DNA of 64,000 bases from an uncultured Bacteroidales bacterium (GTDB lineage: Bacteria; Bacteroidota; Bacteroidia; Bacteroidales; CAIXZF01), in the NCBI GenBank assembly GCA_903923925.1, contig CAIXZF010000035.1, positions 248,001-312,000 of the forward strand, given 5' to 3'. This document shows, piece after piece, positions 31,567 to 52,923 of the stretch. Every line of letters begins with the position of its first letter. The stretch's first letter is position 1. Below the pieces are notes generated by a model, which saw nothing but the letters and a program-made list of their open reading frames with translations, was not told where the DNA came from and did no database searches. Both the position numbers and the translations under genes were made by a program.

Positions 31567-33006
31567 TTATTGTTTATCCCAGAAAATTTTGGTACCAACA
31601 TTATCGCCACCAATCGCAGCAGATGCTGCAGTCCACTGACCAGCATTTAATGTTTGCTCAGCCACAGGATATGTGTAGCGTAATGGAATAACACTGTTTG
31701 CATCTGGAGGAGCAACGAGAGCTGGATAATCAAGTTTTCTCCATTCTGTCCACGATTCAAACCCACGGTTGTAAAGTGCAAACCAGGCTTGAGTTCCAAT
31801 TTTCTCTTTCCATGTTCCGGCAGCACTTGTATAAGCAACAGCAGGCTGATTCAGATATGTAGTTGCTTCGGCATCTGTTCCACCCCAATAAATGATTGAA
31901 GCTCTAATCCCATTATCATAATGGTCTTTTGCAGTTCCTGTAACTCCTGTAAATCCTCTTTCAACAGCCTCAGCTAATAAAAATTCAACTTCTGAGTAGT
32001 CAATAATAGTACCTTCAAAGGTAGCTTCCTTGATTTTATCGCTAATGTGAGAGAATTTAGTATAGTCATTAGAAGCACCATAAACACCACCAATGTAAGC
32101 TGTTGTGTCATTTAATGCAAAGTAGAAAGGTCTTCTTGGGTCGTTTAAGGTATTCATTGGGTCAACGAGAACAGAAGTAGGAACAAAGTCGTTACGTCCA
32201 CTTGCTACCAAATCATCATAAAGAGGATTTGTGTTTGGTGAGGTAGAAAGATAAACGATTTTTCCATTATCAGCGCTTGAAGCAAAAACTCCTGAAGCAA
32301 ATGCTGATTCTACTGTTGTTCTTGCAAAAGCATTATCAGCATCCGCTAAAAGTAAACCGATATTTAATTTTAGTGAGTTTGCAAACTTTAACCAGGAAGT
32401 TACATCGCCCTGATACATATTATCTGCAACACCTAAACTTGCATGAGCTGCATCCATATTTGCAATCGCTGCATTCAACCTTGAAACGAGATCTTTGTAA
32501 ATAACCATTCCATCATCGTAAGCAGGATGTAATTCAGCAATATCCAAAGCTTTGGTATAAGGTATATTCCCAAAGGATCCAACTAAAACACTCCATGTGT
32601 AAACAGACATTATCTCAACAATTGCAAGCCTGTTTTTCTTGCCCTGACCATTATCTGCATCAGTTGCGTAATCAGTCGCTGCAATTATTTTTGCTGATTC
32701 CTTCAGATCCATCAAAACGTCTCTATAAAGAACATTCCAGTGATTATCAGGAATAGAACGTGTTGTAAGGTCATAATTAGACTCATCGATGTAGGTGGTT
32801 TCTGTCCAATACTGGCTGAAAAGTCTGAATATATTGTTATTCACGTTTGTGCTGACCATTTGGTCGAACAAATTAACCTGAGCACCAGTGAAAAGTGATT
32901 CACCCGGTACTGCAATAGGGTCAGTTATATTCTTGTTTAGGTCTTCCAACTTTGTGCAGGAAGCAGCCACAACAAAGACTAGTATAAATGCTATTATCTT
33001 TTTCAT
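31567..33006 (-). CDS. SusD/RagB-family nutrient-binding outer-membrane lipoprotein
   Basis: 479 residues. Lipoprotein signal with lipobox ending at Cys17 ('VVAASC'), followed by 'TKLEDLNKNITDPIAVP'. The protein is of the SusD_2-like subfamily (helical TPR-like scaffold, 'FRLFSQYWTETTYIDESNYD', later 'FLLAEAVERGFTG'), often found with SusC partners that take up peptides or non-starch substrates. It would act as the surface lid of the SusC transporter encoded 10 bases upstream. No glycoside hydrolase, lyase or peptidase gene accompanies it, so the substrate cannot be inferred. Confidence 0.92.
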   Translation of the reverse strand: MKKIIAFILVFVVAASCTKLEDLNKNITDPIAVPGESLFTGAQVNLFDQMVSTNVNNNIFRLFSQYWTETTYIDESNYDLTTRSIPDNHWNVLYRDVLMDLKESAKIIAATDYATDADNGQGKKNRLAIVEIMSVYTWSVLVGSFGNIPYTKALDIAELHPAYDDGMVIYKDLVSRLNAAIANMDAAHASLGVADNMYQGDVTSWLKFANSLKLNIGLLLADADNAFARTTVESAFASGVFASSADNGKIVYLSTSPNTNPLYDDLVASGRNDFVPTSVLVDPMNTLNDPRRPFYFALNDTTAYIGGVYGASNDYTKFSHISDKIKEATFEGTIIDYSEVEFLLAEAVERGFTGVTGTAKDHYDNGIRASIIYWGGTDAEATTYLNQPAVAYTSAAGTWKEKIGTQAWFALYNRGFESWTEWRKLDYPALVAPPDANSVIPLRYTYPVAEQTLNAGQWTAASAAIGGDNVGTKIFWDKQ

Positions 33007-33016
33007 GGTTTATGTA

Positions 33017-36000
33017 TTAGAAATTAAGTTTAAGATTAAAGCCAAAATCACGTGTTGTTGGCAGGGAACCAATAGAATATCCCTGTAAGTTGCCAGCACC
33101 AAGTCCTGATTCAGGATCTGCATAAGGCAGGTTTTTGTGGATAATCCATACGTTTGAACCAACAAGACTGAATGATGCGCCTGCAAGGAAGGTTTTTTCC
33201 AGCAGTTTTGCAGGAAGGCTGTATGAAATAGCTACTTCTCTGAGTTTTACATAACTGGCATCATAAACAAATGCTGAGTTAGGATTTCTCAGGTAACCAA
33301 ATGTTCCGTAGTTGCTTGCAGCAACCCTGGTTTGGTTTGGAGTTCCATCAGGATTAACACCAGGATTGATAAAGCCACCTGAAGTAGGACCATAACCAGC
33401 AGCTAATGAGCCAACAATCAGATTCCTCACAGGGTTACCAAGGTCATTGGTGTAAGCTGTTTCTTTATATAAACCTGTTGCAAGGCCGTAATACATGTCA
33501 AGAGAGAAAATGTCTCCACCCTGTTGCATATCAATCAGGAAGCTAAGTGACCAGTTTTTATAGGATAATGTGTTTGAAATACCACCATTCCAGTCAGGAT
33601 TAACATTACCAATAACATTGTTAGAAGTTGCTGTCATCAAATAACGACCGTTGGTTTTATTTACAATTTTTTCTCCATTTAAGTATTGGTAATCTGTTCC
33701 ATAAATAACGCCGTAAGGTTGCCCAACCATAGCATTAATTGTAACACCACCCTGGAAGGAACCCAAAGGAAGGTTTTCAACACCTTCGATAAGGGATACA
33801 ACTTTGTTTGTATTCTTCGACCAGTTAACTACTATATCCCATTTGAAATCTTTCATTTTAATAGGAGTATACATAATTGATAACTCAACTCCTTTATTTT
33901 CGATTTCGCCTGCATTGATATAAGTTGAACTAAAACCAGTAGCTTTAGAAACAGTGATAGGCAGAATCTGGTCAACTGAACGGGTTTTGTAGAAAGCTAG
34001 GTCGAAACCAAGTCTTCTTCCAAAGAAAAACATTTCAAGACCACCTTCGATACTCTTTGTTCTTTCAGATTTCAAATCAGGATTATTGTTGGTACCTGGA
34101 ACAGATGTTATCAAAGAGTTAAATGATGTTTTTACCTCATATGAATTATATAGTTTGTCAAAACCAGCTTCGTGTCCTACTTCAGCATAGTTCAAACGTA
34201 CTTTACCAAAAGATAACCATTCAAGATCTTTGATAAGGTTTGAAAAAATCATACTTCCGGCAATAGCTGGATAAGTATATTTGTTTTCGCCTTCCAAAAG
34301 TGTTGAAGCATAGTCTCTTCTGATAGACATATCAACATAATATGTGCTCTTATATCCAAGAGAAGCATTTGCATAAGTGCCACGCACACCAATTTTTGAT
34401 TTATATTCTTTCGGACTGATAATTGGATCTACACTGTTCTGCAAGGAGTATACACCAGCGATAGCCAGACCACCATTGGTAGAAGCGATCAGCCTGTTGT
34501 AATTTCTTCTGCTTTCGTTCATACCAAAAACGCCACGGATGTTGAGGTCTTTAGTTAGGTCTTTGTTGAAATTAACCATAAGGTCATAGTTATACTCGCT
34601 ATAAGTTATATCTCTTCTAAGATAACCTGAGCCCGCTTCACTTCTGCCTAAACTTCCGTCCAAAGCACTGCCTGTTCCAACTCCGAAAGGCGAAGCAATA
34701 CTACCAACAGCTCTTCTTTCTTCCTGTAATTCATTGTATGAATCACCTGAAACACGACCAAAAACATCAATCCAGTCATTTACCTTATAATTTAAAGACA
34801 TATTCCCGATGAAACGGTTTCTGCTGTCACTTTCATAGTTCTCGTAGCGGCTCCAGTAATAATTGTCCCAGAATATAGGCACTGCTGATGTTGGGTCAGC
34901 CCAGTTCCAGGTAATATTCCTCTTTGTAAGGTCGTACAAATCTTTTTGTTCTTTAATATCAACATTAGTTTGCATCCATTGGCGGAATGAAGACATAATG
35001 TTATCACTATAACCAGTTGAATTTCTACCTAAAGCTGAATTTCTTAAAAAATTAGCAGATCCAGTACCTGTGAGTCTGTCGGTAATTTTCCATGAGCTAT
35101 TGAAAAGGATGTTATCCTTATTCATTTTACTGTTTGGCAATAATCCATTTTGCTTATAATTAGTATATGAGAACCTGTAACCACCATTTTGCATGCTATT
35201 ATCAATAGCAATACTATTGGTATAGGTTGTTGGATTTTCAAAAAATGTGATTGGGCCATTATCAGCAGCTTTCCATGGAGTTGCTTTCATATAATTAGGT
35301 GATGCAGGGTCAACAGCATCCCACTGATAAACCATTAGGGATGGATCAAATGGAGCACCATAAGAAGCATCTTCTGAAGTAACTACCCATTGTTCGTCTG
35401 TTCCGTCTCCGTTTACATCGCGGATATACCAGAAATTATCTGGTCCTTCATAGTAACGACCATAACCACCACCATATTGATCCTGGTATTCAGGAAAAGT
35501 ACTCTTGTCAACAAAACCTACAGTCATACCTGTGTTTACAGTAACACCAATGTGGCTTTTACCAGGAATCGTAGTTTTTGCCTTTGTGCCTTTTTTGGTT
35601 GTAATCATAATAACACCGTTTGCAGCACGTGCACCATAGAGAGCACTTGCGGCAGCGCCTTTAAGGATATTAACTGACTCAATGTCGTCAGGATTGATGT
35701 CGGAAGCAGCATTACCGTAGTCAAATCCTTGTCCTGCCTGTTTTTGTGAAGATGTGTTTGTTACATCATTACTTACAGGCACACCGTCGATAACAAAAAG
35801 TGGCTGGTTATCACCAGTCAGAGATTTACTACCACGTAATAAAATGTTGGTAGAACCTCCCATATTAGTATTTTTCTTGATTTGTACTCCGGAGACCTTA
35901 CCTGACAATGAGTTAACAAAGTTGTTACCTCTTACAGTGTTTACGATATCTCCCTTTACTTCCTGTGTGGAATATCCAAGAGATTTCTTTTCCCTTGTGA

Positions 36001-36337
36001 TACCAAGAGCAGTTACAACAACACCTTCAATAGCAGTTGTTGTTGCCTCCAGTGTAACATTAATTACAGTTTTACCTGCGATTTCAACTTCTTGTAATTT
36101 CATCCCAATGAATGAAAATGCCAGTGTTTTCGCACTTGCAGGAACAGCCAGGGAATATTTACCATCAATATCAGTCAATGTACCGGTTGTTGTACCTTTA
36201 ACAGATACAGTAACTCCCGGTATTGCACTTCCATCCTCCGCACTGGTAACTTTCCCTGTAATCGTCCGATTCTGGGCGTTAACAACCTGAAGCCCTATGA
36301 ACATCAATAGGCTCAGGAAAATTGTAAATTTTCTCAT
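33017..36337 (-). CDS. SusC/RagA-family TonB-dependent outer-membrane transporter
   Basis: 1106 residues. Signal peptide (1-21, ending 'VVNA'), carboxypeptidase-regulatory-like domain (about 24-100, 'TITGKVTSAEDGSAIPGVTV'), plug domain with 'PLFVIDGVPVS' and 'IESVNILKGAAASALYGARAANGV', and a 22-strand barrel ending in aromatic 'NLKLNF'. It imports a large nutrient using TonB energy. The plug motif and the DxxDG sequence 'DIDGKYSL' are typical. Pairs with the SusD gene downstream. No anti-sigma/ECF or hybrid two-component regulator is adjacent. The upstream 257 bases (36338-36594) show no convincing -7 box. Confidence 0.96.
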   Translation of the reverse strand: MRKFTIFLSLLMFIGLQVVNAQNRTITGKVTSAEDGSAIPGVTVSVKGTTTGTLTDIDGKYSLAVPASAKTLAFSFIGMKLQEVEIAGKTVINVTLEATTTAIEGVVVTALGITREKKSLGYSTQEVKGDIVNTVRGNNFVNSLSGKVSGVQIKKNTNMGGSTNILLRGSKSLTGDNQPLFVIDGVPVSNDVTNTSSQKQAGQGFDYGNAASDINPDDIESVNILKGAAASALYGARAANGVIMITTKKGTKAKTTIPGKSHIGVTVNTGMTVGFVDKSTFPEYQDQYGGGYGRYYEGPDNFWYIRDVNGDGTDEQWVVTSEDASYGAPFDPSLMVYQWDAVDPASPNYMKATPWKAADNGPITFFENPTTYTNSIAIDNSMQNGGYRFSYTNYKQNGLLPNSKMNKDNILFNSSWKITDRLTGTGSANFLRNSALGRNSTGYSDNIMSSFRQWMQTNVDIKEQKDLYDLTKRNITWNWADPTSAVPIFWDNYYWSRYENYESDSRNRFIGNMSLNYKVNDWIDVFGRVSGDSYNELQEERRAVGSIASPFGVGTGSALDGSLGRSEAGSGYLRRDITYSEYNYDLMVNFNKDLTKDLNIRGVFGMNESRRNYNRLIASTNGGLAIAGVYSLQNSVDPIISPKEYKSKIGVRGTYANASLGYKSTYYVDMSIRRDYASTLLEGENKYTYPAIAGSMIFSNLIKDLEWLSFGKVRLNYAEVGHEAGFDKLYNSYEVKTSFNSLITSVPGTNNNPDLKSERTKSIEGGLEMFFFGRRLGFDLAFYKTRSVDQILPITVSKATGFSSTYINAGEIENKGVELSIMYTPIKMKDFKWDIVVNWSKNTNKVVSLIEGVENLPLGSFQGGVTINAMVGQPYGVIYGTDYQYLNGEKIVNKTNGRYLMTATSNNVIGNVNPDWNGGISNTLSYKNWSLSFLIDMQQGGDIFSLDMYYGLATGLYKETAYTNDLGNPVRNLIVGSLAAGYGPTSGGFINPGVNPDGTPNQTRVAASNYGTFGYLRNPNSAFVYDASYVKLREVAISYSLPAKLLEKTFLAGASFSLVGSNVWIIHKNLPYADPESGLGAGNLQGYSIGSLPTTRDFGFNLKLNF

Positions 36338-36594
36338 AATGTTGGATTTTGGTTAGAAAAATAGTTAGACACTTGATTTTCAATTAATTAAAAATAATAA
36401 AAATTCCCGCAGCACCCAAGCTTTGGAAGGTTAAGTATATTGTGTATTAATTAATTACGATATGCGCCCTATAACTGCACATATTCCAAATTGCACAGCC
36501 AATTTAATGCAAAAAGCGATTAAGTTCAAAAAAAAATTGATAAAAAATTAATATTATTTTCTAAGTAGAAAGAAAATCACAGAGAATAAGCTTG

Positions 36595-37050
36595 TTAGGC
36601 CATGTCCTTTAAAAAGACAGCGTACAACAAAACAAAGCTGGCTGAAAGCATTAGGTCTCCTGAAGGGAAATGATCAGAGAAAATGTAAAATGACGAAAGG
36701 AAAATTAAAGCAAACTGCGATAAAGTATAAACATGGAATCCTATTTTCTTTAAATTCCACATTTGCCGGGTACCAAAAATTGTTGCCAGATAGAAGAATG
36801 CACCGATTAAAAATATATTGGGAGGCGTTGCAAGTATTACCTCCATCCCAGCCATCTGAAATTGGGGTAGGTCTTTCATCTGTACAAAAGTGTCATGAAA
36901 CAGTCCAAGCATGCTGAAAGAAAACAGCATCATACCACTGCCGATAAAGCTTAATACACAAACAACAGAAAGCAGGACAGGCCGTGTTTTAATACGGCTG
37001 TCGGCTTCCTCTTCAAAATTATTTTCTTCTGTATTATTCAAGACTTCCAA
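36595..37050 (-). CDS. Four-helix membrane protein of unknown function
   Basis: 151 residues. A polar, acidic N-terminus (1-25, Glu/Asn rich) precedes four predicted membrane helices (about 26-50, 70-92, 103-121, 128-147). I do not recognise a family. It overlaps the end of the ammonia-lyase gene by 17 bases, so the two are translationally linked and probably functionally related, for example as a small membrane partner, but that is inference. No terminator was seen right after it. Confidence 0.6.
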   Translation of the reverse strand: MEVLNNTEENNFEEEADSRIKTRPVLLSVVCVLSFIGSGMMLFSFSMLGLFHDTFVQMKDLPQFQMAGMEVILATPPNIFLIGAFFYLATIFGTRQMWNLKKIGFHVYTLSQFALIFLSSFYIFSDHFPSGDLMLSASFVLLYAVFLKDMA

Positions 37051-38575
37051 TTGCTTTTTCGACTTCTTCTAAAATTTCACCAGATTTCACTAGTGCTTTC
37101 ATTTTATTGTGATCATTGTATAAAGGGCGGTCAATATCAAGATAATCAACGTGTTTTCTGATTACGGCATGCGCAACTTTAGTTCCTTTACCAAATTCAT
37201 ATTTCTGCTCATCAAATTTTACTCTCAGATCAAGTGCCTGTGCAGCTGCAAATAGTTCGATGCCAAGGATACCATATGCATTATCCAATATTTGCAGATT
37301 TTTCAGAGCAGTGTTGTAACCCATAGAAACAAAGTCTTCCTGATCAGCAGCAGCCGGAATCGACTGAATACAAGCTGGTGCAGAAAGAATCCGTTGCTCG
37401 ACAATTTGCATATCTGCAGTATACTGGCTGAGCATAAGACCTGAAAACATACCTGCACCTTTTGTCAGGAATGGTGGTAAACCAACACTTAATGCCGGAT
37501 TATTCAGTCTGTTCATCCTTCTTTCAGAAAGTACCGACACCATAGTTATACAATACCCAACCATGTCCATTGGAACTGCAATCGGACTTCCCTGGAAATT
37601 CGCACCGCTAAGCGCGAGATTTTCTTCAGGAAAGAATATTGGATTGTCTCCAACTCCATTCAGTTCAATTTCTACTTGTTCGCGGGCCCATTTCACAGCA
37701 TCATGTGCTGCACCAATTACCTGAGGCGTTGATCGCATCGAATATGCATCCTGCACCTTTACTTTTATACGTCCTTCTGCCAGATCGCCGCCAGCATTCA
37801 CGGTTCTTATTGCTTTAGCACTTCTAATTCCTCCGGGAAATCCACGGGCTTCCAGTATTCTGCTATTGTATGGTTTCAGATTTGCTTTTAACGCTTCTAA
37901 AGAAAGTGCACATGCAATTTCAGCCTGCTTCAACCAACGATTAACATCATAAATCATCAGTGCCCCCATGCCAGTCAACACGTTTGATCCGTTGATTGCA
38001 GCAAGACCATCCCTAGCCATAAGCCCTGGTATCGGAATACCTGCTTTTTCCATTGCAATATTTCCCTCATAAAGTTCGCCTTCATAAAAGGCTTGCCCTT
38101 CGCCCATAAGTAAAAGTGCAATCTGCGACATTGGAGCAAGATCACCACAGGCTCCAACTGAACCTTTATTACATACAAAGGGTACAACCCCCTTGTTGAG
38201 CATATCAACATAAGTCTGGGTAATTTCAAGCCGGCAACCGGAATTTCCATGAGCATGCACGTTAATTCTGCCTAACATTGCTGCGCGGACAATTTCCAGC
38301 GGAAGGGCTTCACCTATTCCGGCAGCATGATTATAAATAAGATACTTCTGGAAATCCTGTACCTGATCGTCTGTTAAAACTACTTCACTGAATTCTCCAA
38401 TGCCTGTATTAACCCCATACATAATTTCATGAGCATCAATTTTCCTTTCAAGCATCGCTCTGCAGGAATTGATCTTTGTGATTGAGTCGGGATGTAATTC
38501 AATTTTTGCACCATTACGGGCAACATCTACTACTTTTTCAATAGTGAGTCCCTGGCCTGAAATAATTATTGCCAT
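37034..38575 (-). CDS. Histidine/aromatic amino acid ammonia-lyase family, Cys variant of the MIO triad
   Basis: 513 residues, full length for histidine ammonia-lyase. The core 'MYGVNTGIGEF' (Y53) and 'GSVGACGDLAPMSQ' are clear. The electrophilic MIO cofactor normally forms from Ala-Ser-Gly; here the triad is Ala142-Cys143-Gly144 (codon TGT, 38147-38149). The substrate-selectivity pair is Asn82-His83, where histidine lyases usually have Ser-His and tyrosine/phenylalanine lyases His-Leu/Phe-Leu. So His-like substrates are likely but not proven. No hutU, hutI or hutG is nearby. From recollection, a laboratory S143C mutant of Pseudomonas HAL still forms active cofactor, so this enzyme may be active. 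Confidence 0.88.
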   Translation of the reverse strand: MAIIISGQGLTIEKVVDVARNGAKIELHPDSITKINSCRAMLERKIDAHEIMYGVNTGIGEFSEVVLTDDQVQDFQKYLIYNHAAGIGEALPLEIVRAAMLGRINVHAHGNSGCRLEITQTYVDMLNKGVVPFVCNKGSVGACGDLAPMSQIALLLMGEGQAFYEGELYEGNIAMEKAGIPIPGLMARDGLAAINGSNVLTGMGALMIYDVNRWLKQAEIACALSLEALKANLKPYNSRILEARGFPGGIRSAKAIRTVNAGGDLAEGRIKVKVQDAYSMRSTPQVIGAAHDAVKWAREQVEIELNGVGDNPIFFPEENLALSGANFQGSPIAVPMDMVGYCITMVSVLSERRMNRLNNPALSVGLPPFLTKGAGMFSGLMLSQYTADMQIVEQRILSAPACIQSIPAAADQEDFVSMGYNTALKNLQILDNAYGILGIELFAAAQALDLRVKFDEQKYEFGKGTKVAHAVIRKHVDYLDIDRPLYNDHNKMKALVKSGEILEEVEKAIGSLE

Positions 38576-38605
38576 TTCGATTGTTTTTTTTGATTTTTAA
38601 TAGTG

Positions 38606-38618
38606 ACGCATAATGCGT
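38606..38618. promoter_or_regulatory. Palindrome ACGCAT-A-ATGCGT upstream of the ammonia-lyase gene
   Basis: A perfect 6+6 inverted repeat with a single central base, 31 bases before the ATG at 38575. It could be an operator for a dimeric regulator. A long T-run (38583-38591 region on the + strand) lies between it and the start codon. Confidence 0.35.
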
Positions 38619-38767
38619 AAAGAGTGATGGTTCTGGCTTGATAGCAAAGCCACGAAAATTATTCAGAATACAATCCGGTTCGGTTAATTTGTATTTTGAA
38701 TCGTAAAAACCATGGAGTTTCCATTGGCAATATTTTGTGCTAAATTAATGATTTTATTCAAATAATA

Positions 38768-40144
38768 TCAGGATAATAGAAATTGCAGCAAATCCTCTGT
38801 TGTAAGAGATTGTTGTTCACCACTTTTCATATTTTTCAGTGTAACAAGGCCTTTGGCAAGTTCATCTGATCCGCAGAGAACAACAAATTGAATGTTTTTA
38901 GCATCTGCATAACTGAACTGTTTTTTCAGGCCTGCCGACTCAGGATAAATTTCAGATGGAATTCCCGATTTCCGGATCGTTTGCAATAAGCCAAGCGCAA
39001 ATTTTTCTTCATCTGCCCCAAAGTTTGTAATCAGAACTTTTGTGCCAGCAATAGCTTTTTCATTGAAAAGATTAAGTTCATTGAGTACGTCATAAATCCT
39101 GTCGGCTCCAAAAGAAACACCTACACCAGAAATTCCGTTTAGTCCAAACACCCCAGTGAGATCATCATAACGGCCGCCACCACATATACTTCCAATATTC
39201 ACACCCTGTGCTTTTACTTCAAAAATTGCTCCGGTATAGTAATTCAGTCCTCTTGCTAATGTGAGATCCAAAATAACAGGAGCTTTGGAGTTCAGTGCTT
39301 CGAGATAGTCAAGGATAGTCCGCATTTCGGAAACACCTTTCAGCCCGGTTTCACTTGATGCAAGAATTGTTTCAAGACTGAGTAATTTTTCCAAGAAGCC
39401 CCCCGATAGCGCAAAAATGGGCTGAAGTTTATTAATAGAGTCATTCGAAATGCCGTTTGATACAAGTTCTTTATTAACACCTTCAATTCCAATTTTATCG
39501 AGCTTGTCTATTGCTACAGTAATTGCAATGAATTTATCAGGTTCTCCAATTACTTCAGCAATCCCTGCAAGGATTTTCCTGTTATTGAGATGAATAGAAA
39601 CAGGAATATCCAATTGAAGGAAGATTTCCTCAATTATCTGAATAAGTTCTACTTCATTTATAAGAGCGTTGCTTCCGATTACATCCACATCACATTGATA
39701 AAACTCACGATAGCGGCCTTTCTGCGGCCGGTCTGCCCTCCAAACGGGCTGTATCTGGAAACGTTTGAAGGGAAACTGAATGTCGTTTCTGTGTTGTACA
39801 ACAAATCTTGCGAATGGAACTGTTAAATCATATCTTAAACCTTTTTCAGAAATCAGGTTTGTAAATGATGATGAAGATATTTTTTCTTTAGTATTTCCGT
39901 TTTCGTCAATAACCCCGGAAGAAGCCAGATAGTTACCTGAATTTAGAATTTTAAACAGAAGCTTATCACCCTCTTCTCCATATTTTCCCAACAATGTGCT
40001 GAGATTCTCCATTGCCGGAGTTTCTATTGGCTGGTATCCATATTTCTGAAAAACACATTTAACCTGGTCGAAAATGTAATTTCTTCTTGCCATTTCAGTA
40101 GGACCAAAATCGCGTGTTCCTTTTGGAATTGAAGGCTTCTGCAT
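38768..40144 (-). CDS. hisS: Histidine--tRNA ligase
   Basis: 458 residues. Class II synthetase motifs are visible: motif 1 region '[18 protein letters not shown]' (1-20 area), '[12 protein letters not shown]' and motif 2 '[19 protein letters not shown]' (split [25 protein letters not shown]), the histidine-specific '[14 protein letters not shown]' and motif 3 'GGRYDDL'. The C-terminal anticodon-binding domain starts near 355. It is the last gene of the five-gene operon beginning at 45648, 10 bases after ettA. It is next to, but not co-directionally spaced with, the lyase gene (gap of 192 bases). Confidence 0.97.
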
Positions 40145-40154
40145 GTACTTTTTA

Positions 40155-41831
40155 TTAGGATATCAATTTTTTGTAGCGAATTCTGTGAGGAGTATTATCT
40201 GAAAACCGTTTTTTACGATTCTCTTCATACTCGGTATAGCCTCCTTCAAAAAAGTATACCTGAGAGTCGCCTTCAAAAGCAAGAATATGTGTTGCTACTC
40301 TGTCGAGGAACCACCTGTCGTGTGATATGATAACTGCACAACCGGCAAAATTCTCAAGCCCTTCTTCCAAAGCACGTAATGTGTTCACATCAATATCATT
40401 TGTAGGCTCATCAAGCAGGAGAACATTTGCTTCTTCTTTAAGAGTCAATGCCAGGTGAAGTCTGTTTCTTTCTCCACCGGAAAGAACTCCACATTTTTTC
40501 TCCTGATCAGCACCGGTAAAATTAAATTTTGCAATATATGCTCTGGAATTCATAATTCGCCCGCCAAGTTGCATGCTTTCATGACCGCCAGAAACTACCT
40601 GATAAACACTTTTCTCAGGATCAATATCAGCGTGAGACTGATCAACATAGCCGATTTTTACAGTTTCTCCTATTCTGAATGACCCGCTATTCGGGGTTTC
40701 TGTACCCATTATCATCCTGAAAAGCGTCGTTTTTCCTGCACCATTAGCCCCGATTATTCCAACGATTCCAGCAGGTGGCAGAGCAAATTCCAGGTTTTCA
40801 AAAAGCAGTCTCTCACCAAATCCTTTTGCAACCTGCTGTGCTTCAATAACCAGATTACCCAATCTTGGCCCGTTAGGAATATTTAATTCCAGGCGATCCT
40901 CCTTCTGTTTACTATCTTCATTCAATAATTTTTCATAACCGTTCAAACGGGCCTTTCCTTTTGCCTGCCTGGCTTTTGGGCTCATCCGTACCCACTCAAG
41001 CTCACGCTCAAGAGTTTTACGTCTTCTGGATTCAGTTTTTTCCTCCATAGCCAAACGGGTTGATTTCTGTTCCAGCCAGGAAGAATAATTACCCTGCCAT
41101 GGAATTCCTTCGCCGCGGTCTAATTCAAGGATCCATCCTGCCGCATTATCTAGAAAATACCTGTCATGAGTGATCGCAATTACAGTTCCTTTATATTGCT
41201 GCAGATGCTGTTCAAGCCATTCAACCGATTCAGCATCCAGGTGGTTTGTAGGCTCATCAAGAAGAAGGATATCGGGTTCCTGCAGTAATAGACGGCATAA
41301 TGCAACCCTGCGTCGCTCGCCTCCTGAAAGATTAAGAATAGGGGAGTCAGGGTCCGGGCAGCGTAGGGCATCCATTGCTCTTTCAAGTTTACTGTCAAGT
41401 TCCCATGCATTATGATGGTCAAGAAGCTCTGTTAATTCTCCCTGCCGCATGATAAGCTTATCCATTTCACTGTCAGTCATAGGTTCAGCAAACTTATTGT
41501 TTACTTCATCGTATTCCTTTAAAAGGTTAACAACATCCTGTACTCCTTCTTCAACTATTTGCTTAACTGTTTTTGTATCATCAAGATCTGGTTCCTGAGC
41601 AAGGTGCCCAATGGTATATCCCGGCGAAAAAACAACCTCACCCTGGAAGGATTTCTCTATCCCGGCAATTATTTTTAGTAAGGTAGATTTTCCACTGCCA
41701 TTTAATCCAATAATTCCGATTTTCGCTCCGTAGTAAAACGAGAGGTAGATGTTTTTAAGAACCTGTTTCTGTGGTGGGAATGTTTTACTCACACCAACCA
41801 TCGAAAAAATAATTTTATTGTCTTCTGACAT
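40155..41831 (-). CDS. ettA: Energy-dependent translational throttle protein EttA (ABC-F)
   Basis: 558 residues. Two ABC ATPase domains with Walker A 'GLNGSGKST' (about 42-50) and 'GANGAGKTT', two 'LSGGERRR' / 'LSGGERNR' signatures, and the linker with '[17 protein letters not shown]' that contacts P-site tRNA in EttA. In E. coli EttA gates the first peptide bond according to ATP/ADP ratio. It has no membrane domain. Fourth in the LptF/G operon, 13 bases after the glycosyltransferase gene. Confidence 0.96.
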
Positions 41832-41844
41832 GCTTATTTTGAAT

Positions 41845-43008
41845 TTATGTATTTAGTATAGTTTTCTCAAGAATTCCTGTTGATACTTCCCAATTGTAAG
41901 TGCTATGCACAAATTGATTTCCATTGCTTGCCAATTTTTTTGCAAAATTACAATCTTCCAGAAGATTAAGAACGTGGTCGGCATATTCATCTGCAGAATT
42001 TCCGATTAAAACCTCAATGCCTGGTTTTGCACCCAGTGAGTTATTCGCGAGTTTACTGGTTATACAAGGCAAATTCATTGACATTGCTTCGAGCAACTTA
42101 TTCTGTAAACCTGTGCCTATTTGCATGGGAGCAATAAAAATCTTAGCCGAATTATACGAATCACGAATATCTTCAACCCACCCAGCAATTTCGATATTTG
42201 CTGATGCTAACTCCATTAATTTTGTGTCAGGATTTACACCTGCTATTTTTAATTTAATACCGGGTCTTTTTAAAATAATTTTAGGAAGAATTTCCTTTAT
42301 CAGAAAGATTGCACTCAGAATATTGGGAGCATAGCTCATGTTCCCAGTGAAAAGAAGGTCAGTTGTTTTCACTGTTTCCTTTTGTTGAAAAAACAGACTA
42401 TCAACCCCATTTGGAATAATAATTATCTGTCCTCTGTCAGGATGATGGATAAATTCCTGATCGGGTTTGGAAATGATTGTCTTATTATCGAACAGGCTAA
42501 ATACCTTTTTCTCATAGTTAAGCAGTCGTTTGTATTCAAAATTCAGAAAAGGTTTCATCCAGAATGGTGCAAATTCCTTTCTCCTGTCGATGCCTTTTGA
42601 AAATACATCCTGATAATCGAGAGTTTTTTTTGTACTGATGTTCCTTACATATTCAGCTGTTCGGATAAGTTGACAGTAAATATGATCCGGGTTTAATTCT
42701 TTAATTGTTTTTTCAATAGCAATATGAGCTTTCCGGCTGTAAAAATATCCTACCTGAAGAGGATTTCCAGTAAAAAGAGCACGGAAAATATTAATACCTA
42801 TTGACACTTTTGAAAGATTTACCACCTGAATAGTTTTGCAAAACTTTCCTAGAATATTTAGCGCATCTGGATGCAAATCAGTATCATTCAAACAGCATAA
42901 ATGAATTGTATGATGTTGAGAAAGACAACGGATCTGGTGGAATGCCCGAAGCTTATCGCCTTTTTCGAGAGGGTAGGGTACCCTCGATAATAGTATCAGA
43001 ATTTCCAC
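41845..43008 (-). CDS. Glycosyltransferase (GT4-like)
   Basis: 387 residues, GT-B fold. The N-terminus 'LSRVPYPLEKGDKLRAFHQI' and the C-terminal 'FTGNMSYAPNILSAIFL', 'IAPMQIGTGLQNKLLEAMSM' (the E-x7-E region of GT4 enzymes) are typical of sugar-nucleotide dependent transferases acting on surface polysaccharide or glycolipid. It follows the second glycosyltransferase by one base. The donor and acceptor are unknown; its position behind an LPS-export permease gene suggests lipopolysaccharide or exopolysaccharide assembly. Confidence 0.85.
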   Translation of the reverse strand: MEILILLSRVPYPLEKGDKLRAFHQIRCLSQHHTIHLCCLNDTDLHPDALNILGKFCKTIQVVNLSKVSIGINIFRALFTGNPLQVGYFYSRKAHIAIEKTIKELNPDHIYCQLIRTAEYVRNISTKKTLDYQDVFSKGIDRRKEFAPFWMKPFLNFEYKRLLNYEKKVFSLFDNKTIISKPDQEFIHHPDRGQIIIIPNGVDSLFFQQKETVKTTDLLFTGNMSYAPNILSAIFLIKEILPKIILKRPGIKLKIAGVNPDTKLMELASANIEIAGWVEDIRDSYNSAKIFIAPMQIGTGLQNKLLEAMSMNLPCITSKLANNSLGAKPGIEVLIGNSADEYADHVLNLLEDCNFAKKLASNGNQFVHSTYNWEVSTGILEKTILNT

Positions 43009-43009
43009 C

Positions 43010-44212
43010 TTAGTTTTGTTGTTTCAATTCATCATAAAAATTCATTAACTTTCTGATAACATGATTGTTGTCGTGTTCTTCTCTAACTAGTTGTTTGGCA
43101 TGCTGCCCGATCTCAGCAATTTTTTCAGGATATTTCATGCAACTACTGATTGCAGCTATAAAAGATTCTTTATCATTTGCTATCAGTATATTTTTCCTGT
43201 CAGTATATGAAATACCTGCAGCTCCGGTAGCTGTGGAAATTACCGTTTTCCCGGCTAACATTGCCTCAATTATCTTGATTCGTATTCCGCTTCCTGAAAA
43301 TAAAGGAACAATCATTATGGAATGACTATCGATGAATTCTGCTGCATTCTCAACCTCACCAACTATGACAACACCATTTGAATTGCAGTTTAACAACCAT
43401 TCAGGCATTTTTCTTCCAGCAAGGTGAACCTTTAATTGTGAGAATTTTGAATGAGTTTCAGGCCAAACCTCTTCAATAAACCATTTTATACCTTTTTGAT
43501 TCGGAATCCAGTTCATTGATCCGATATGAAATAAGCTAATCTCTTTTACATCAGCAATGTTGTTGGTTTCCGGAATCTTTACTCCGAATGGAATAAGTCG
43601 GATTTCTGTTTTTGAGCTGAATGTATTGTAAAAAGGAATGTCATCCTGACTTATTACAGCAATACCATCTACTTTTGGAAGTGTATGACGCTCGTACCGT
43701 TCAAGGGTTCTGGCAAGTTTAGAAAGAATAAACTTTTTAAACACATTCACTGATTCTAATGCAAGCTGCTTCCAGATCAAATGTTCTGTATTATGGGCTC
43801 TTAGTAGAATTTTTGCAGTAGAATTTTTACGGATAACGTCTATGTAAGGACACATATACAAGGTTTCAAGCTGAACAACATCATAGTTGTCAGCTTTCAA
43901 AACATGTATTAGTTTTGCTTTAAATTCTGCAGAATCAAACCGGGAAACATGATAGGATTCACCGGTGATAATACTTTTTATTAGTGAAACAGGACGGATT
44001 TTTAAATCGAAATGGATGGTCTCCAACCCTGTTCTTTCAAGATATTCTCTTGGAATTTTGGTAAAATCGACCTGAAACTTATGTGAAGTAACAGCCAGCA
44101 CCTTTACAGTGTTTCCTTCTGCTATCAATCCTTCAATCAATGCATTCATCGCAATTGACCCGCCTTCAACAGGTGGAAATGGTGATTTACTACAGAGGAA
44201 AAGTACTCGCAT
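43010..44212 (-). CDS. Glycosyltransferase (GT4-like)
   Basis: 400 residues, GT-B fold and a probable paralogue of the following gene. 'LCSKSPFPPVEGGSIAMNALI' opens the first Rossmann domain (glycine-rich acceptor loop), and the second includes 'FHIGSMNWIPNQKGIKWF' and 'IVPLFSGSGIRIKIIEAMLAGK' (here split IVPLFSGSGIRIKI; IEAMLAGKTVIS), the GT4 donor-binding region. It lies 8 bases after the permease gene and one base before the next glycosyltransferase. Sugar specificity unknown. Confidence 0.85.
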   Translation of the reverse strand: MRVLFLCSKSPFPPVEGGSIAMNALIEGLIAEGNTVKVLAVTSHKFQVDFTKIPREYLERTGLETIHFDLKIRPVSLIKSIITGESYHVSRFDSAEFKAKLIHVLKADNYDVVQLETLYMCPYIDVIRKNSTAKILLRAHNTEHLIWKQLALESVNVFKKFILSKLARTLERYERHTLPKVDGIAVISQDDIPFYNTFSSKTEIRLIPFGVKIPETNNIADVKEISLFHIGSMNWIPNQKGIKWFIEEVWPETHSKFSQLKVHLAGRKMPEWLLNCNSNGVVIVGEVENAAEFIDSHSIMIVPLFSGSGIRIKIIEAMLAGKTVISTATGAAGISYTDRKNILIANDKESFIAAISSCMKYPEKIAEIGQHAKQLVREEHDNNHVIRKLMNFYDELKQQN

Positions 44213-44220
44213 TTGTTTAT

Positions 44221-45648
44221 TTACTTAGTTTTTCTGAATATTCTTGAAATAAATTTTTGCCATGATTCCATATCAAATAATGGAGAATCAGTTGTGGCCT
44301 TATAGGTCAGAAAAACTCCTATTGGAAGAAAAACCATAGGCGCAATCCACATACCTTTCCAAGCAGGAAGTACACCTTCTCGACTAAATTTTTCTCCTGT
44401 TATTGAAAGAATATGGAAAATAACAAAGAAAAAGATAGAAATAACAACAGGCATCCCGAATCCTCCTTTTCGGATTATTGCTCCAAGTGGAGCCCCGATA
44501 AAAAACAGAATCAGGCAAGCCAGCGACAAAGTGAATTTACGCTGGATTTCAATTTCATACCGGTATAAGTTACCCGATCTGGATTCTATCTCATTTGAAT
44601 GCATTTCGAGATTCTCCTTAATTCCTCTGGCAGTACTAATTGCACCGTTAATTATCTGATTTTGCTCGGCCGGTGTAAAATTCGACATAAAGTCTGCTTT
44701 AACAGGTTTAAACGTGTCAATCAAAACTTTTTTCTCTTTTTTGTCAAGTAAAGTAAGATTGTAGAATCCGTTTTTAACAATACTGGTCATGTCCTCTGAC
44801 CGGTTTTTAATTTTCTTTTTAATCGAATCCGAAGCATACGTTAATTGACCCAGATTCAGCATTTGATAATTACTACGGAACAAATCTTCATTCGTCCTGT
44901 TCATCGAAAAATTCGAAAGGTCAAATCGCCTTTGATTCTCTTTAAAGATTGTTCGTTGAAACGACCTGTGTGAAAAATAATTTCTTTGTTCAACCTTTTC
45001 CTGGTAATTGATGCCATCATGGAGGGTGAAAATCAGGTTCTTTTTATCTGCTGTTAATTCCATTGTACCCCAATCTGCTGTTGTAAGGTTGGTGTTTCCC
45101 ATCCGCGCAGTATGATTGTATATTTTGATATTCCTGATTGTTTTTCCATCAGTTTCCTTTTTACCAACCCGGATTACATAACCATCAATTCCATCGTAAA
45201 AAAAGCCTTCTTTAATATTTAGAGCAAGCTTTTGTTCTCTTACATCATAAAGGATAGAATGGAATTTTAAATTAGCAATAGGTAAGATGTTATTCGAAAA
45301 ATAAAAGGCTATAATGCTTATGATTAATGATAATCCAACGAGTGGAGCCATTAATCTTCTTAAAGAGATTCCGGATGATTTCAGTGCAACCAATTCATAA
45401 TGCTCGCCTAGATTGCCAAAGGTCATTAGCGATGAAAGCAGGATGGCAAGTGGTAATGCAAGAGGCACAAAAGTTGAAGATGCATAGAAAAGTAATTTTG
45501 CTATAATATACCATTCAAGGCCTTTGCCAACCAGGTCATCTATATACTTCCAAACAAATTGCATAAGCAGGATAAACAGAGCGATGAAGAAAGTCATCAC
45601 CAGCGGTCCTACATAGGCTCTGAGAACGAGAATGTGAATCTTTTTCAT
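44221..45648 (-). CDS. LptF/LptG-family permease
   Basis: 475 residues. Three membrane helices near the N-terminus (about 14-37, 60-82, 98-118), a periplasmic beta-jellyroll-like domain (about 125-340), and three C-terminal helices near 375-455. This is the YjgP/YjgQ fold of the LPS exporter LptB2FG, which lifts lipopolysaccharide out of the inner membrane. Longer than E. coli LptF (366), as common in Bacteroidota. Only one such gene is present. First gene of the operon; promoter box at 45674-45681. Confidence 0.92.
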   Translation of the reverse strand: MKKIHILVLRAYVGPLVMTFFIALFILLMQFVWKYIDDLVGKGLEWYIIAKLLFYASSTFVPLALPLAILLSSLMTFGNLGEHYELVALKSSGISLRRLMAPLVGLSLIISIIAFYFSNNILPIANLKFHSILYDVREQKLALNIKEGFFYDGIDGYVIRVGKKETDGKTIRNIKIYNHTARMGNTNLTTADWGTMELTADKKNLIFTLHDGINYQEKVEQRNYFSHRSFQRTIFKENQRRFDLSNFSMNRTNEDLFRSNYQMLNLGQLTYASDSIKKKIKNRSEDMTSIVKNGFYNLTLLDKKEKKVLIDTFKPVKADFMSNFTPAEQNQIINGAISTARGIKENLEMHSNEIESRSGNLYRYEIEIQRKFTLSLACLILFFIGAPLGAIIRKGGFGMPVVISIFFFVIFHILSITGEKFSREGVLPAWKGMWIAPMVFLPIGVFLTYKATTDSPLFDMESWQKFISRIFRKTK

Positions 45649-49074: not shown

Positions 49075-50940
49075 ATGAAAAAACTGTTACTCATTGGCCT
49101 TGCCTTGTTTATAAGCTTTGGCGTTTCAGCACAGCAACATGCTAAACACGCTTACAACCCATTGAAAAATGTGTCTGTAAAAAAGCCAGCAATGAAAGCA
49201 ATTGATGAATCAACCAATTTCCTTGCAGCAAAACCTAATCAGACTGTAAAATCAGGCCTGATTATAAGTGAAAGCAATGTTGGAACTAGCAGGTATGACC
49301 TGCAAACCAATGGTGCTACACAGAATCGTATCTACCTGCATTCAGATGGAACAATTGGTGCAACATGGACAATGGGTCTGGTTGATCCAGGTTTTACTGA
49401 CAGAGGAGCCGGTTATAATTACTATGATGGTTCTGCATGGGGTCCTTCTCCAACAGCACGTATCGAAGATGTAAAAACCGGATGGCCTTCATACCAGCCT
49501 TGTGGTGCTAATGGCGAAATCGTTGTTACTCACATGGGAACTGTTTCAGGACTCAAAGTTTCTAAAAGAGATACAAAAGGTACAGGTGCATGGAATTGGA
49601 GCGCTCTTGTCGGACCTGCTTCTGTTCCTGAACTGCTATGGCCGCGTATGGTCACCAGTGGTACAAATCATAACTATGTTCACGTTGCTTCTCTTACCGC
49701 TCCTGTTGCTAATGGCGGTACTGTTTACAACGGTCAGGATGGGTCCCTTATGTATAATCGTTCGTCAGACGGTGGAGTTACCTGGGATATTCAGAATGTT
49801 CAGTTCCCACAGTCAGATACAAATATTTCTTATGGTTTAAGCGGTGATAATTACGCATGGGCTCAGCCAAGAGGCAACACCATTGCTTTTGTTTACGGCG
49901 ACAACTGGGAGAATATCAGTTTATGGAAATCAACTGATAACGGAGCTAACTGGACTAAAACAACAATTTTCCAGCATCCTTATCCAAAATTCAAAGAAAC
50001 TACTACTCTTGTAACTGATACTCCTTACGTTTGTGATGGTGGTATTACTTGTGCAATCGATCCAAGTGGAAATGTTCACGTTGCTTTTGGTCTGATGAGA
50101 GTTCTCAATGATGACCTTACCGATGGTACTACTTCTTTTTTCCCATATACCGACGCTTTGGTATACTGGAAAGAAGGCGATGCTCCATTTGCTACGCTAA
50201 ATATTGATCAGCTTTATGCCGACAATAAAGTTATTGCTTCTACACCGGATTTAAATGGTAATGATACTATTTTCGAATATGTTGCTATCGGAACATATTA
50301 CCTTTCAATTACCGGCATGCCAAACATGGCTATCGATGATGACGGTAAAGTTTATGTTTTCTATACAACTGTTATGGAGCACATGGATAATGGCGTTGAA
50401 AATTATCGTCACGTTTGGGCAAGAGCTAAAGTTGATGGAATCTGGAAAGATGCTGTAAATATCAACAGCAGTATCGTTCATAATTTTGACGAGTGTATTT
50501 TTCCAAGTGTTTCTCCAACAACCGATGCTAATGTTTATATTATCTATCAGGCTGATGAAGAGCCAGGTATGGCAGTTAGAGGTTCTACTCCAGCTGATCC
50601 ATATACAGATAATTCACAAATCGTTGTTAAAATTCCTAAACCAGACCTTACTATTATTGGTATCAAAGATCAACCAGCTCCGCTTGCTTACGTTTCACAG
50701 AATATTCCTAACCCAACCAATGGAACAACTATGTTCAGGGTTAGTTTGATGAAACCTACCACTTTAAGTGTTGAAGTTATGAATTCTGTTGGCCAGAAGG
50801 TTTTCGAAATTCCAGCTTCTGCTGCAGGTGCAGGTACTCATGAATTTACTCTTGATGTTTCTAAGTTTGAGGCAGGCTTATATTTCTACACAGTTTCTGC
50901 TGGTGGAAACAAGGTTACCAAAAAAATGATCGTTCAGTAA
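49075..50940 (+). CDS. Secreted Asp-box protein with T9SS type A tail, paralogue A of tandem array
   Basis: 621 residues. Signal peptide ends about residue 20 ('VSAQ'). Conserved blocks shared with the next two genes include 'SRYDLQTNGATQNRIYLH', 'DRGAGYNYYDGSAWGP', Asp boxes 'SSDGGVTW' and 'STDNGANW', 'MEHMDNGVENYRHVWAR', 'HNFDECIFPSVSPT' and 'ADEEPGMAVRGSTPADPY'. The last about 75 residues are a T9SS type A sorting domain ('IPNPTNGTTMFRV' to 'TKKMIVQ'). No catalytic residues for sialidase are evident. Likely surface-exposed or released; ligand unknown. Own promoter; a strong terminator follows at 50963. Confidence 0.85.
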   Translation: MKKLLLIGLALFISFGVSAQQHAKHAYNPLKNVSVKKPAMKAIDESTNFLAAKPNQTVKSGLIISESNVGTSRYDLQTNGATQNRIYLHSDGTIGATWTMGLVDPGFTDRGAGYNYYDGSAWGPSPTARIEDVKTGWPSYQPCGANGEIVVTHMGTVSGLKVSKRDTKGTGAWNWSALVGPASVPELLWPRMVTSGTNHNYVHVASLTAPVANGGTVYNGQDGSLMYNRSSDGGVTWDIQNVQFPQSDTNISYGLSGDNYAWAQPRGNTIAFVYGDNWENISLWKSTDNGANWTKTTIFQHPYPKFKETTTLVTDTPYVCDGGITCAIDPSGNVHVAFGLMRVLNDDLTDGTTSFFPYTDALVYWKEGDAPFATLNIDQLYADNKVIASTPDLNGNDTIFEYVAIGTYYLSITGMPNMAIDDDGKVYVFYTTVMEHMDNGVENYRHVWARAKVDGIWKDAVNINSSIVHNFDECIFPSVSPTTDANVYIIYQADEEPGMAVRGSTPADPYTDNSQIVVKIPKPDLTIIGIKDQPAPLAYVSQNIPNPTNGTTMFRVSLMKPTTLSVEVMNSVGQKVFEIPASAAGAGTHEFTLDVSKFEAGLYFYTVSAGGNKVTKKMIVQ

Positions 50941-50962
50941 TCTTTTCTGAATTGGTTTTAAG

Positions 50963-50997
50963 AAAAGCTGCTTCAAACTTGAAGCAGCTTTTTTTTT
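50963..50997 (+). terminator. Intrinsic terminator after paralogue A
   Basis: AAAAGCTGCTTCAA (50963-50976) pairs with TTGAAGCAGCTTTT (50979-50992) around a 2-base loop and runs on into a T-run to 50997. Separates paralogue A from paralogues B and C. Confidence 0.85.
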
Positions 50998-51008
50998 GCC
51001 TTAATCTC

Positions 51009-51035
51009 TACGTTTGGCAATATTCATTAGATTTG
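51009..51035 (+). promoter_or_regulatory. Two -7-like boxes before paralogue B
   Basis: TACGTTTG at 51009-51016 and TAGATTTG at 51028-51035 both fit TAnnTTTG. Neither has a good -33 box at normal spacing; the second ends 25 bases before the ATG. Confidence 0.4.
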
Positions 51036-51060
51036 TAATTGATAATAAAACAAAAAAATT

Positions 51061-52905
51061 ATGAAGAGAATTTTATTTCTTATCGTTGCTCTGTCAACAA
51101 GTATTGTAGCATTGCCCCAGCAAAGACAACTGGGTAAAGTTGTTCCTGCGAACAAGGCCAATCTTGAAATGATGAAACCTTTCCGGAATGCTGTAAAAGA
51201 TATAAATAATTATATGGTTACGATCCCTCAGGTACCATATAAAGCAAAAGCTGTTGTTACTGAAGAGGTTATAGGACAAACTCGCTACGATCTGCAAACG
51301 AATCAAAGTGTACAAAACAGAGTTTATGCTTTTCCTGATCACACAATTGGAGCAGTCTGGACCAGGGGAATTGCAGATCCGGGATTTGCTGACAGAGGTT
51401 CAGGATACAATTATTATGATGGCTCAAGTTGGGCTCCGGCACCTTCTGCAAGAATTGAAACTACTAAAGCCGGCTGGCCATCATATCAACCTTATGGGCC
51501 GAACGGTGAAATAGTTGTAACTCACCATAATACAGCCGGTTTAATTGTTTGTAAACGCGATACTAAAGGAAGTGGTGCCTGGACTGAAAGTATTCTTCCT
51601 GGCCCTACAGGAGCAATTGATATCTCCTGGCCTAGAATGGTAACTTCCGGACCAAATCATGACAAAATCCATATAATAGCCAGCACTTATTCTGTTTACC
51701 AGGGTCTGAATCTCGCTTTACTCTATTACCGCTCCTTAGATGGTGGCACGACCTGGGACCAGCAACATGTTATTCTACCAGGTATGTCCAGTACCGAATA
51801 TGCCGGTTTTGCAGGCGATAGTTATGCAATGGCTCAACCTCATGGTGATACCCTGGCTTTCGTTGTTGGCGACAATTGGATTGATCTGTTTATGATGAAA
51901 TCCACGGATGGTGGAACTTCATGGACAAAAACAGTCATTTTTCCACATCCTTACCCGCATTTTGTTGAAACTACCACACTTGTTTTGGATACTCCAACTG
52001 TTACGGATGGCTCACTTGCAATAACCCTCGACAAATTTGGAAAAGCCCATGTTGCCTTTGGTCTCATGAAAGTATTGAATGCAGATCTTACCGATGGTAC
52101 AACCTCATTCTTCCCTTATACTGATGGTTTAGCATACTGGAATGAAGATATGCCGCAACTAAGCAGCCTCGATTTTAATGTGCTTGAACAATCAGGTAAT
52201 ATAGTTGGCTCAACTCCTGACCTGAACAATAATGATACTATTCTTGAATTTATCGATCTAGGAACATATTACCTTTCAGTTACCAGTATGCCAACTATTG
52301 CAGCATACGATAATGGAATATACCTTTCATACGCAACTGTAATGGAGCATATGGATAATGGAGTTCAGAACTACCGCCATATCTGGGCAAGAAATACTTT
52401 TAATGCTGGTGTAAGTTGGTCTGATCCTGTTAATCTCAATTCTTCGATAGTACATAATTTTGATGAGTGCGTGTTCCCTTGTTTTTCTCCTACACCTATT
52501 CTCTATCATTTTCCATTATCATATCAATATGATGAGGAACCTGGAATGGCTGTGAGAGGGGATGTTCCTGCAGATCCATATACTGATAACAGTATTGCCG
52601 TGATAAATGTGCCTCTGGCAATTGGCATCAATGAACTCTCAGATGTCAATTTTGAAGTTTTACAGAATTATCCTAATCCTGCTAACGGAAATACAACGAT
52701 CCCTGTAATCTTGAAGAATCCCGGAACAATTGAATTTACTGTGAATGATTATCTGGGAAGAATTCTTAATTCACAGGTGTTAAAGAATGTTGGAACGGAC
52801 AAGCAGCTGATCACACTTGATACCAGGAATTGGGCTTCGGGATTATATTTTTACACTGTTCGGTCAGGTAAACAGGAAGTTACGCATAAATTAGTCGTTA
52901 ATTAA
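51061..52905 (+). CDS. Secreted Asp-box protein with T9SS type A tail, paralogue B
   Basis: 614 residues, signal peptide to about residue 18 ('VALPQ'). Shares with its neighbours 'TRYDLQTNQSVQNRVYAF', 'DRGSGYNYYDGSSWAP', Asp boxes 'SLDGGTTW' and 'STDGGTSW', 'MEHMDNGVQNYRHIWAR' and 'YDEEPGMAVRGDVPADPY'. The sorting domain ('VLQNYPNPANGNTTIPV' to 'THKLVVN') differs more from those of paralogues A and C than they differ from each other. It ends 18 bases before paralogue C, so B and C are probably one transcript. Function as for paralogue A: unknown surface or secreted binding protein. Confidence 0.85.
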   Translation: MKRILFLIVALSTSIVALPQQRQLGKVVPANKANLEMMKPFRNAVKDINNYMVTIPQVPYKAKAVVTEEVIGQTRYDLQTNQSVQNRVYAFPDHTIGAVWTRGIADPGFADRGSGYNYYDGSSWAPAPSARIETTKAGWPSYQPYGPNGEIVVTHHNTAGLIVCKRDTKGSGAWTESILPGPTGAIDISWPRMVTSGPNHDKIHIIASTYSVYQGLNLALLYYRSLDGGTTWDQQHVILPGMSSTEYAGFAGDSYAMAQPHGDTLAFVVGDNWIDLFMMKSTDGGTSWTKTVIFPHPYPHFVETTTLVLDTPTVTDGSLAITLDKFGKAHVAFGLMKVLNADLTDGTTSFFPYTDGLAYWNEDMPQLSSLDFNVLEQSGNIVGSTPDLNNNDTILEFIDLGTYYLSVTSMPTIAAYDNGIYLSYATVMEHMDNGVQNYRHIWARNTFNAGVSWSDPVNLNSSIVHNFDECVFPCFSPTPILYHFPLSYQYDEEPGMAVRGDVPADPYTDNSIAVINVPLAIGINELSDVNFEVLQNYPNPANGNTTIPVILKNPGTIEFTVNDYLGRILNSQVLKNVGTDKQLITLDTRNWASGLYFYTVRSGKQEVTHKLVVN

Positions 52906-52923
52906 TCATCTAAAATCTAAATT

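Follow-up and report, generated by a model that had tools for sequence, protein, structure and literature searches.

Can an ammonia-lyase whose MIO cofactor would have to come from Ala-Cys-Gly rather than Ala-Ser-Gly be a working enzyme, and on which substrate would it act? The question is raised by a gene in a window of 64,000 nucleotides, the whole stretch of DNA analysed here, from an uncultured Bacteroidales bacterium (assembly GCA_903923925.1, contig CAIXZF010000035.1, positions 248,001 to 312,000 of the forward strand). The gene encodes a protein like histidine ammonia-lyase (HAL, HutH) in which the middle residue of the triad is Cys143. An original prediction, made from the letters of the DNA, had offered three fates for this residue, namely formation of MIO after loss of H2S, a modified cofactor, or an inactive protein, and had named ergothioneine among the histidine analogues to be assayed.

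One source calls the Ala-Ser-Gly triad strictly conserved (PMC3903478), and a family review states that the first residue of the triad alone may vary (PMC9002059). The known triad variants described there keep the middle Ser, whereas the window protein varies this middle residue, the source of the methylidene, to Cys (PMC9002059). In the literature searched, chiefly open-licence papers, we found no report of a natural Cys triad or of S143C.

Results

An intact lyase gene with an Ala-Cys-Gly triad

The lyase ORF (Table 1) begins with ATG, contains zero internal stops and matches the PF00221 profile from position 1 to 466 of 466, with an E-value of 5e-155 and 517 bits against a cut-off of 27.3. 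Both the ORF list and the translation bear out the extent and strand originally given for the gene. The codon for Cys143 is TGT, at 38149-38147 of the minus strand, inside the motif GSVGACGDLAP. Its equivalence to Ser143 of P. putida HAL, as predicted, follows from two alignments of L020, itself a Ser-His HAL, one to PDB 1gkm and the other to the window protein. The reading of the selectivity pair as Asn-His instead of Ser-His was likewise correct.

Table 1. Coordinates of the lyase, its diagnostic residues and its immediate neighbours in the window
Feature	Position	Strand	Basis
Predicted small membrane protein, adjoining the lyase downstream; start uncertain, overlaps the lyase end	36595..37050	(-)	ORF; no Pfam match
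Lyase of the Asn-His clade resembling histidine ammonia-lyase; 513 aa	37034..38575	(-)	ORF, translation, PF00221
Gln328 (NFQG); His in other HALs (NFH)	37592..37594	(-)	Q in 113/113 clade ORFs
MIO triad codons, Ala142-Cys143-Gly144	38144..38152	(-)	Sequence; position of Ser143 of P. putida HAL
Asn82-His83 (YNHAAG), substrate-selectivity pair; Ser-His in usual HALs	38327..38332	(-)	NH in 113/113 clade ORFs
hisS, histidyl-tRNA synthetase, 192 bp upstream of the lyase	38768..40144	(-)	PF13393 and PF03129

A sharply bounded clade with Cys or Ser at position 143

Comparison of 182 unique homologous ORFs separated a clade of 113, to which the window protein belongs, from 69 others. The boundary is sharp, with members at 64% identity or more and the others at 41% or less (a gap from 64.4% to 40.5% among the compared ORFs). 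Four clade rows (L001, L043, L074 and L175) had been dropped as duplicates, being equal to L002, L006, L008 and L163. Within the clade the triad is Ala-Cys-Gly in 75 ORFs and Ala-Ser-Gly in 38, while none of the 69 non-clade ORFs has Cys at 143 (44 ASG, 24 SSG and 1 GSG). The Ser-His pair is found in 67 of these 69, and residue 328 is His in 23 of the 24 non-clade rows compared, the remaining one having Met. Asn82 and Gln328 are the clade's own marks. Met381 and Glu413, which are also kept in the clade, are common to Ser-His HALs but not to the three farthest homologues compared. What had been described as a variant of the triad is natural, yet it is no single variant, the state being clade-wide; nor do all close homologues have Ser, the finding against which the original prediction had been set.

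Ser-Ser-Gly occurs in L117-L121, L123-L129, L131, L132, L134-L136, L138, L140, L141, L143, L145, L146 and L173, and Gly-Ser-Gly in L174; the share of Ser-Ser-Gly among non-clade ORFs is not a fair sample, because most loci are the best-scoring PF00221 matches.

In a 32-row tree the clade forms a single branch with support of 100/100, and on the opposite side the other HALs are grouped with moderate support (88/85). This second group includes hutH from annotated hut operons (Peptoclostridium, Cetobacterium) and a hutI-adjacent gene in Thermus.

The clade was sampled in three ways. Among 59 related genomes, the window's own included, 17 encode a full-length close orthologue, the 16 besides its own being 72-82% identical, and the other full-length matches lie at 30-38% identity. 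A scan of genome contigs with an alignment of the 17 orthologues matched at least 581 stretches, 548 of them confirmed, and the best 80, ordered by similarity to the window protein, were kept. Their labels are mostly Bacteroidota, with some Zixibacteria, Bdellovibrionales, Neomarinimicrobiota, Delongbacteria, Chlorobiota, Thermoplasmata and others, and lone short contigs among them may be mis-binned. The third sample was drawn from 296 genomes of the phylum, 208 of them with PF00221, from which 26 were picked for weak PF00221 scores; 18 of these 26 carry the clade gene, and since the sample consists of low scorers, with the 182 others left out, clade genes with a better-scoring HAL next to them would go unseen. 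The numbers of ACG and ASG members are 10 and 7 of 17 among the relatives, 51 and 29 of 80 among the contigs, and 16 and 2 of 18 in the phylum sample. Among 859 matching plasmid records none reaches 60% identity, the best among the matches listed being 43.8%, and 39 viral stretches retrieved with two patterns yielded no relative by tblastn.

Repeated interchange of Cys and Ser

Cys and Ser at position 143 interchange repeatedly within the clade, even between 97%-identical proteins. On the best tree of 120 rows, built with the trait column excluded and holding 110 clade rows (109 different) rather than all 113, the Cys label changes 18 times, at least 7 of these changes being forced by starred branches; FastTree with the trait column retained gave 14 Cys/Ser changes. 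The closest view is offered by three mixed pairs above 90% identity: L099/L107, L041/L050 and L040/L050, two of which share L050. L099 (Cys, TGT) and L107 (Ser, AGC), both from Bdellovibrionales, are 96.7% identical and differ at 17 positions.

A residue compensating for Cys was considered in these pairs and rejected, as all three share C143S and no other change; F164Y appears in two of them, L099/L107 and L040/L050. Across the alignment, the column most strongly associated with Cys holds Ala221 in 74/75 Cys rows versus 27/38 Ser rows, relatedness being ignored.

Both serine codon classes occur in the 38 Ala-Ser-Gly members, TCN in 21 and AGY in 17. A dead-end model, in which Cys never goes back to Ser, fits far worse than the alternative (AIC 184 versus 160). 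A strict bridge model, in which the Ser codon classes interchange via Cys alone, was also rejected, contrary to expectation (AIC 166.2 versus 159.7 for an unordered one-rate model); as the unordered model fits better, a bridge through Cys stays a suggestion. Four models give Cys a probability of 0.66-0.96 at the clade root, a four-rate ordered model gives 0.46, and the dead-end model, by construction, gives 0. We hold it conceivable, with somewhat less than even confidence, that this is a natural, widespread HAL subfamily in which Cys is the usual MIO precursor, with loss of H2S, that Cys is ancestral, and that Ser was regained several times, in both TCN and AGY form.

Gene neighbourhood

ORFs of the hisS type form a cluster found in 39/81 sources, many contigs ending early. 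By a stricter hisS motif, 32 of 79 sources have the gene in their flanks, and in 30 of the 79 it shares the strand of the clade gene and lies at most 2.5 kb upstream; these 79 sources, used for the motif and HAL-distance counts, omit L037 and L075, where no clade ORF was called. The small membrane protein downstream belongs to a family with 56 related ORFs in 36/81 sources, often in two copies.

A gene order recurs in the window (31567-45648) and in many of L033-L112. It runs from an LptG-like protein through two glycosyltransferases, an ABC-F ATPase and a cupin-like protein (absent from the window) to hisS, the lyase, the small membrane protein, SusC and SusD. Except for hisS, the names LptG-like, glycosyltransferase, ABC-F, cupin-like, SusC and SusD are our assumptions from reading the sequences. 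Farther along, at 49075-54789, the window holds three tandem, paralogue-like ORFs of 614-621 aa.

Histidine as the probable substrate

The window protein is probably a working HAL of a distinct subfamily, marked by Asn82-His83, Gln328 and Cys or Ser at 143, whose MIO would arise from Ala-Cys-Gly with loss of H2S. For the Ala-Cys-Gly enzymes of the clade, MIO formation, H2S release and the substrate are what we infer; the genomic company of the gene bears on the last of these.

In the host genome (4.6 Mb, 117 contigs) PF00221 matches the window lyase and no other protein. The same genome encodes a urocanase of 664 aa (C115), imidazolonepropionase (C19) and FtcD (C6), each on a contig separate from the others and from that of the lyase (C35), and hutU, hutI and FtcD all score over their NCBI cut-offs, as the HutH pathway calls for. 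The earlier statement that no other histidine-degradation gene is near thus holds within the window, where ORFs of at least 150 aa were read, but the pathway genes are present elsewhere in the genome. Neither those ORFs of the window nor the ORFs of that size in the 12 kb surrounding each of hutU and hutI showed a local hut operon.

The same association is found in other genomes. Among the relatives, urocanase was detected in 15 of the 17 clade genomes, in 9 of the 11 that have no match besides the clade gene (as judged by protein search, and by PF00221 for the window's own genome) and in 0 of 16 without such a gene; hutI over its cut-off was found in 17/17 clade genomes versus 0/16. In the phylum sample, all 18 genomes with the clade gene as their only PF00221 gene have urocanase, whereas none of 20 genomes taken from the 88 that lack PF00221, 12 of the 20 belonging to a single family, has a convincing urocanase. 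Three of these 20 gave marginal matches (2.5e-4 to 8e-4), two of them over the cut-off when in-frame neighbours are counted. Among genomes with an Ala-Cys-Gly lyase only, 21/22 retain urocanase (relatives 5/6, phylum 16/16), and a convincing one is found in 0/36 genomes without such a gene, relatedness being ignored. The clade genomes without a detected urocanase are G017 (Ser) and G058 (Cys), the latter being the one exception among the 22. Urocanase frames in the taxonomic order to which the window belongs mostly span about 665-700 codons (for example L178:4908-6902), and those of clade-bearing genomes outside its class about 550-604.

Asn-His in place of Ser-His and Gln328 in place of His make another substrate possible. 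Under such a reading MIO would form from Cys or Ser, but Asn82 and Gln328, constant throughout the clade and rare or absent outside it, would reshape the pocket for a different substrate, such as a derivative of histidine or some other aryl amino acid. The profile scores can be read in this direction. With the NCBI hutH equivalog TIGR01225 the window protein reaches 475.5 bits, under the cut-off of 539.15, and three other clade members reach 491.6-506.2, compared with 609-701 for three Ser-His HALs; with a looser subfamily model, NF006871 (cut-off 524), one of those three members passes at 525.2 and the window protein reaches 508.1. These two HAL models, both under cut-off, are nevertheless the best NCBI models for the window protein, and it also stays below the cut-offs of the Tyr/Phe lyases and aminomutases (TIGR03832, 350 of 501; TIGR04475, 341 of 800; FlxA, 311 of 700; PAL, 196 of 519). 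A further point for a different substrate is that 18 of 79 sources, though not the window, have a same-strand Ser-His HAL within 27-611 bp of the clade gene, an arrangement that plain replacement leaves unexplained. The genomes keeping both HALs may use them on two substrates or regulate them differently. Set against this are the presence of urocanase where the clade gene is the sole gene of its type and the retention of Met381 and Glu413, and we regard a different substrate as unlikely.

In L048, L059, L067, L073, L108 and L110 the Ser-His HAL is separated from the clade HAL by an ORF on the opposite strand that we take, from reading it, to be thioredoxin-like.

Conservation and selection

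The catalytic residues of P. putida HAL are, as we take them, Tyr53, His83, Asn195, Gln277, Tyr280, Arg283, Phe329 and Glu414. Their equivalents in the clade (Tyr53, His83, Asn195, Gln275, Tyr278, Arg281, Phe327 and Glu413) are unchanged in 113/113 ORFs. In Geobacillus kaustophilus HAL, equivalent residues were mutated as catalytic, and Y52F, H82L, N194D and E411D were inactive (PMC11432326).

A dS value could be computed for 41 of the 48 pairs above 90% identity, and these pairs gave dN/dS values of 0.013-0.042, rough figures since dS is often above 1, near saturation, and many pairs share lineages. The range is alike for Cys/Cys pairs (0.017-0.042), three Ser/Ser pairs and three mixed pairs. 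By this measure the clade enzyme appears to be under purifying selection and to have been kept working.

These values stand against Cys143 as a loss of function, in which the Ala-Cys-Gly members would be degenerate or inactive, or would use a free thiol in some other role. In favour of such a loss, changing Ser143 of P. putida HAL, or the matching serine of parsley PAL, to Ala lowered activity more than 1000-fold (PMC3903478), and the Ala-Cys-Gly gene of G230 changes frame near residue 435, through either a frameshift or a faulty record. In G049, one more of the 59 related genomes, the clade lyase is present only as broken pieces (G049:C79:33360-33918, 47-76% identity, with stops inside one piece), and this genome also encodes homologues of the Ser-His type; the broken copies in the two genomes mean that the clade gene can be dispensable or that some records are faulty. 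A decayed enzyme is nonetheless hard to reconcile with the poor fit of the dead-end model and with the urocanase retained in nearly all genomes that have an Ala-Cys-Gly lyase only. Nor is Cys commoner where a back-up enzyme adjoins; it is rarer there, being present in 7 of the 18 clade genes beside a Ser-His HAL versus 44 of the 62 other loci of the best 80 (Fisher p 0.024, with relatedness ignored and contigs ending early counted as without a Ser-His HAL). Loss of function is therefore very improbable in our judgement, and among the fates first proposed for Cys143, MIO formation via H2S loss is the best supported.

An AF2 model of the window protein has a mean pLDDT of 92.4, and its best Foldseek match is a P. 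putida HAL entry (TM 0.92, rmsd 1.9). By the modelled fold HAL cannot be distinguished from the other MIO enzymes, whose matches are nearly as good. Ergothionase, whose substrate ergothioneine the original prediction had named among the analogues to assay, shares the fold (Foldseek rank 8). Its sequence match (E 2.8e-56) is weaker, however, than those of P. putida HAL (2.1e-78) and Thermoplasma HAL 7tqr (2.6e-87), and the host urocanase, the urocanase gene being the one compared, passes hutU (414 versus 375) but is far under the thiourocanate hydratase cut-off (298 versus 930). Both this reading and inactivity are disfavoured because of the purifying selection, the interchange of Cys and Ser between orthologues and the ordinary hutU, hutI and FTCD in a genome without another HAL, which leaves an ergothionase-like enzyme or one for such analogues only the slightest likelihood. 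A sequencing or assembly error of one genome is excluded in practice, since the identical Cys recurs in 75/113 unique clade ORFs with both codons in use, TGT in 31 and TGC in 44.

Discussion

The comparison reveals a clade-wide, natural Ala-Cys-Gly triad in an otherwise known MIO enzyme family, wider than the original prediction had supposed. Compared with HutH of known structure (P. putida HAL, 1b8f/1gkm; Thermoplasma, 7tqr; Trypanosoma, 6v6h), the window protein is alike in fold (query TM 0.89-0.93), catalytic residues, length, triad position and a genome with hutU, hutI and FTCD. It differs in having Ala-Cys-Gly and not Ala-Ser-Gly, Asn-His and not Ser-His, and Gln328 and not His; in its 31-33% identity in the structure alignments and its score under the hutH equivalog cut-off; and in the position of its gene apart from the other hut genes.

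For a working HAL with a Cys-derived cofactor, the following course may be envisaged. After folding, the amide nitrogen of Gly144 would attack the carbonyl of Ala142, so that the backbone of residues 142-144 cyclises, and the ring thus formed would then lose water. The side chain of Cys143 would lose H2S where Ser loses H2O, giving the same methylidene and hence the same MIO. This would act as in an ordinary HAL, converting histidine to urocanate, which would pass on via HutU, HutI and FTCD, whose genes lie on other contigs of the genome. A laboratory precedent reportedly exists in P. putida HAL S143C, which Langer, Lieber and Retey are said to have found in 1994 to be converted post-translationally into fully active enzyme. 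Both proteins have Cys143, but S143C is an engineered mutant, whereas the state seen in the window is natural and common in its clade.

A natural and common Ala-Cys-Gly triad suggests that the methylidene-forming residue of this family can be Cys, and annotation that relies on the motif would miss such enzymes. The natural Cys/Ser pairs are usable for probing MIO cyclisation and elimination. Besides, a single catalytic position that mixes TCN, TGY and AGY codons can be used to test how one class of serine codon turns into the other. If Cys is indeed the ancestral precursor from which Ser was regained, the clade would be a living example of a catalytic serine switching codon class through a functional cysteine.
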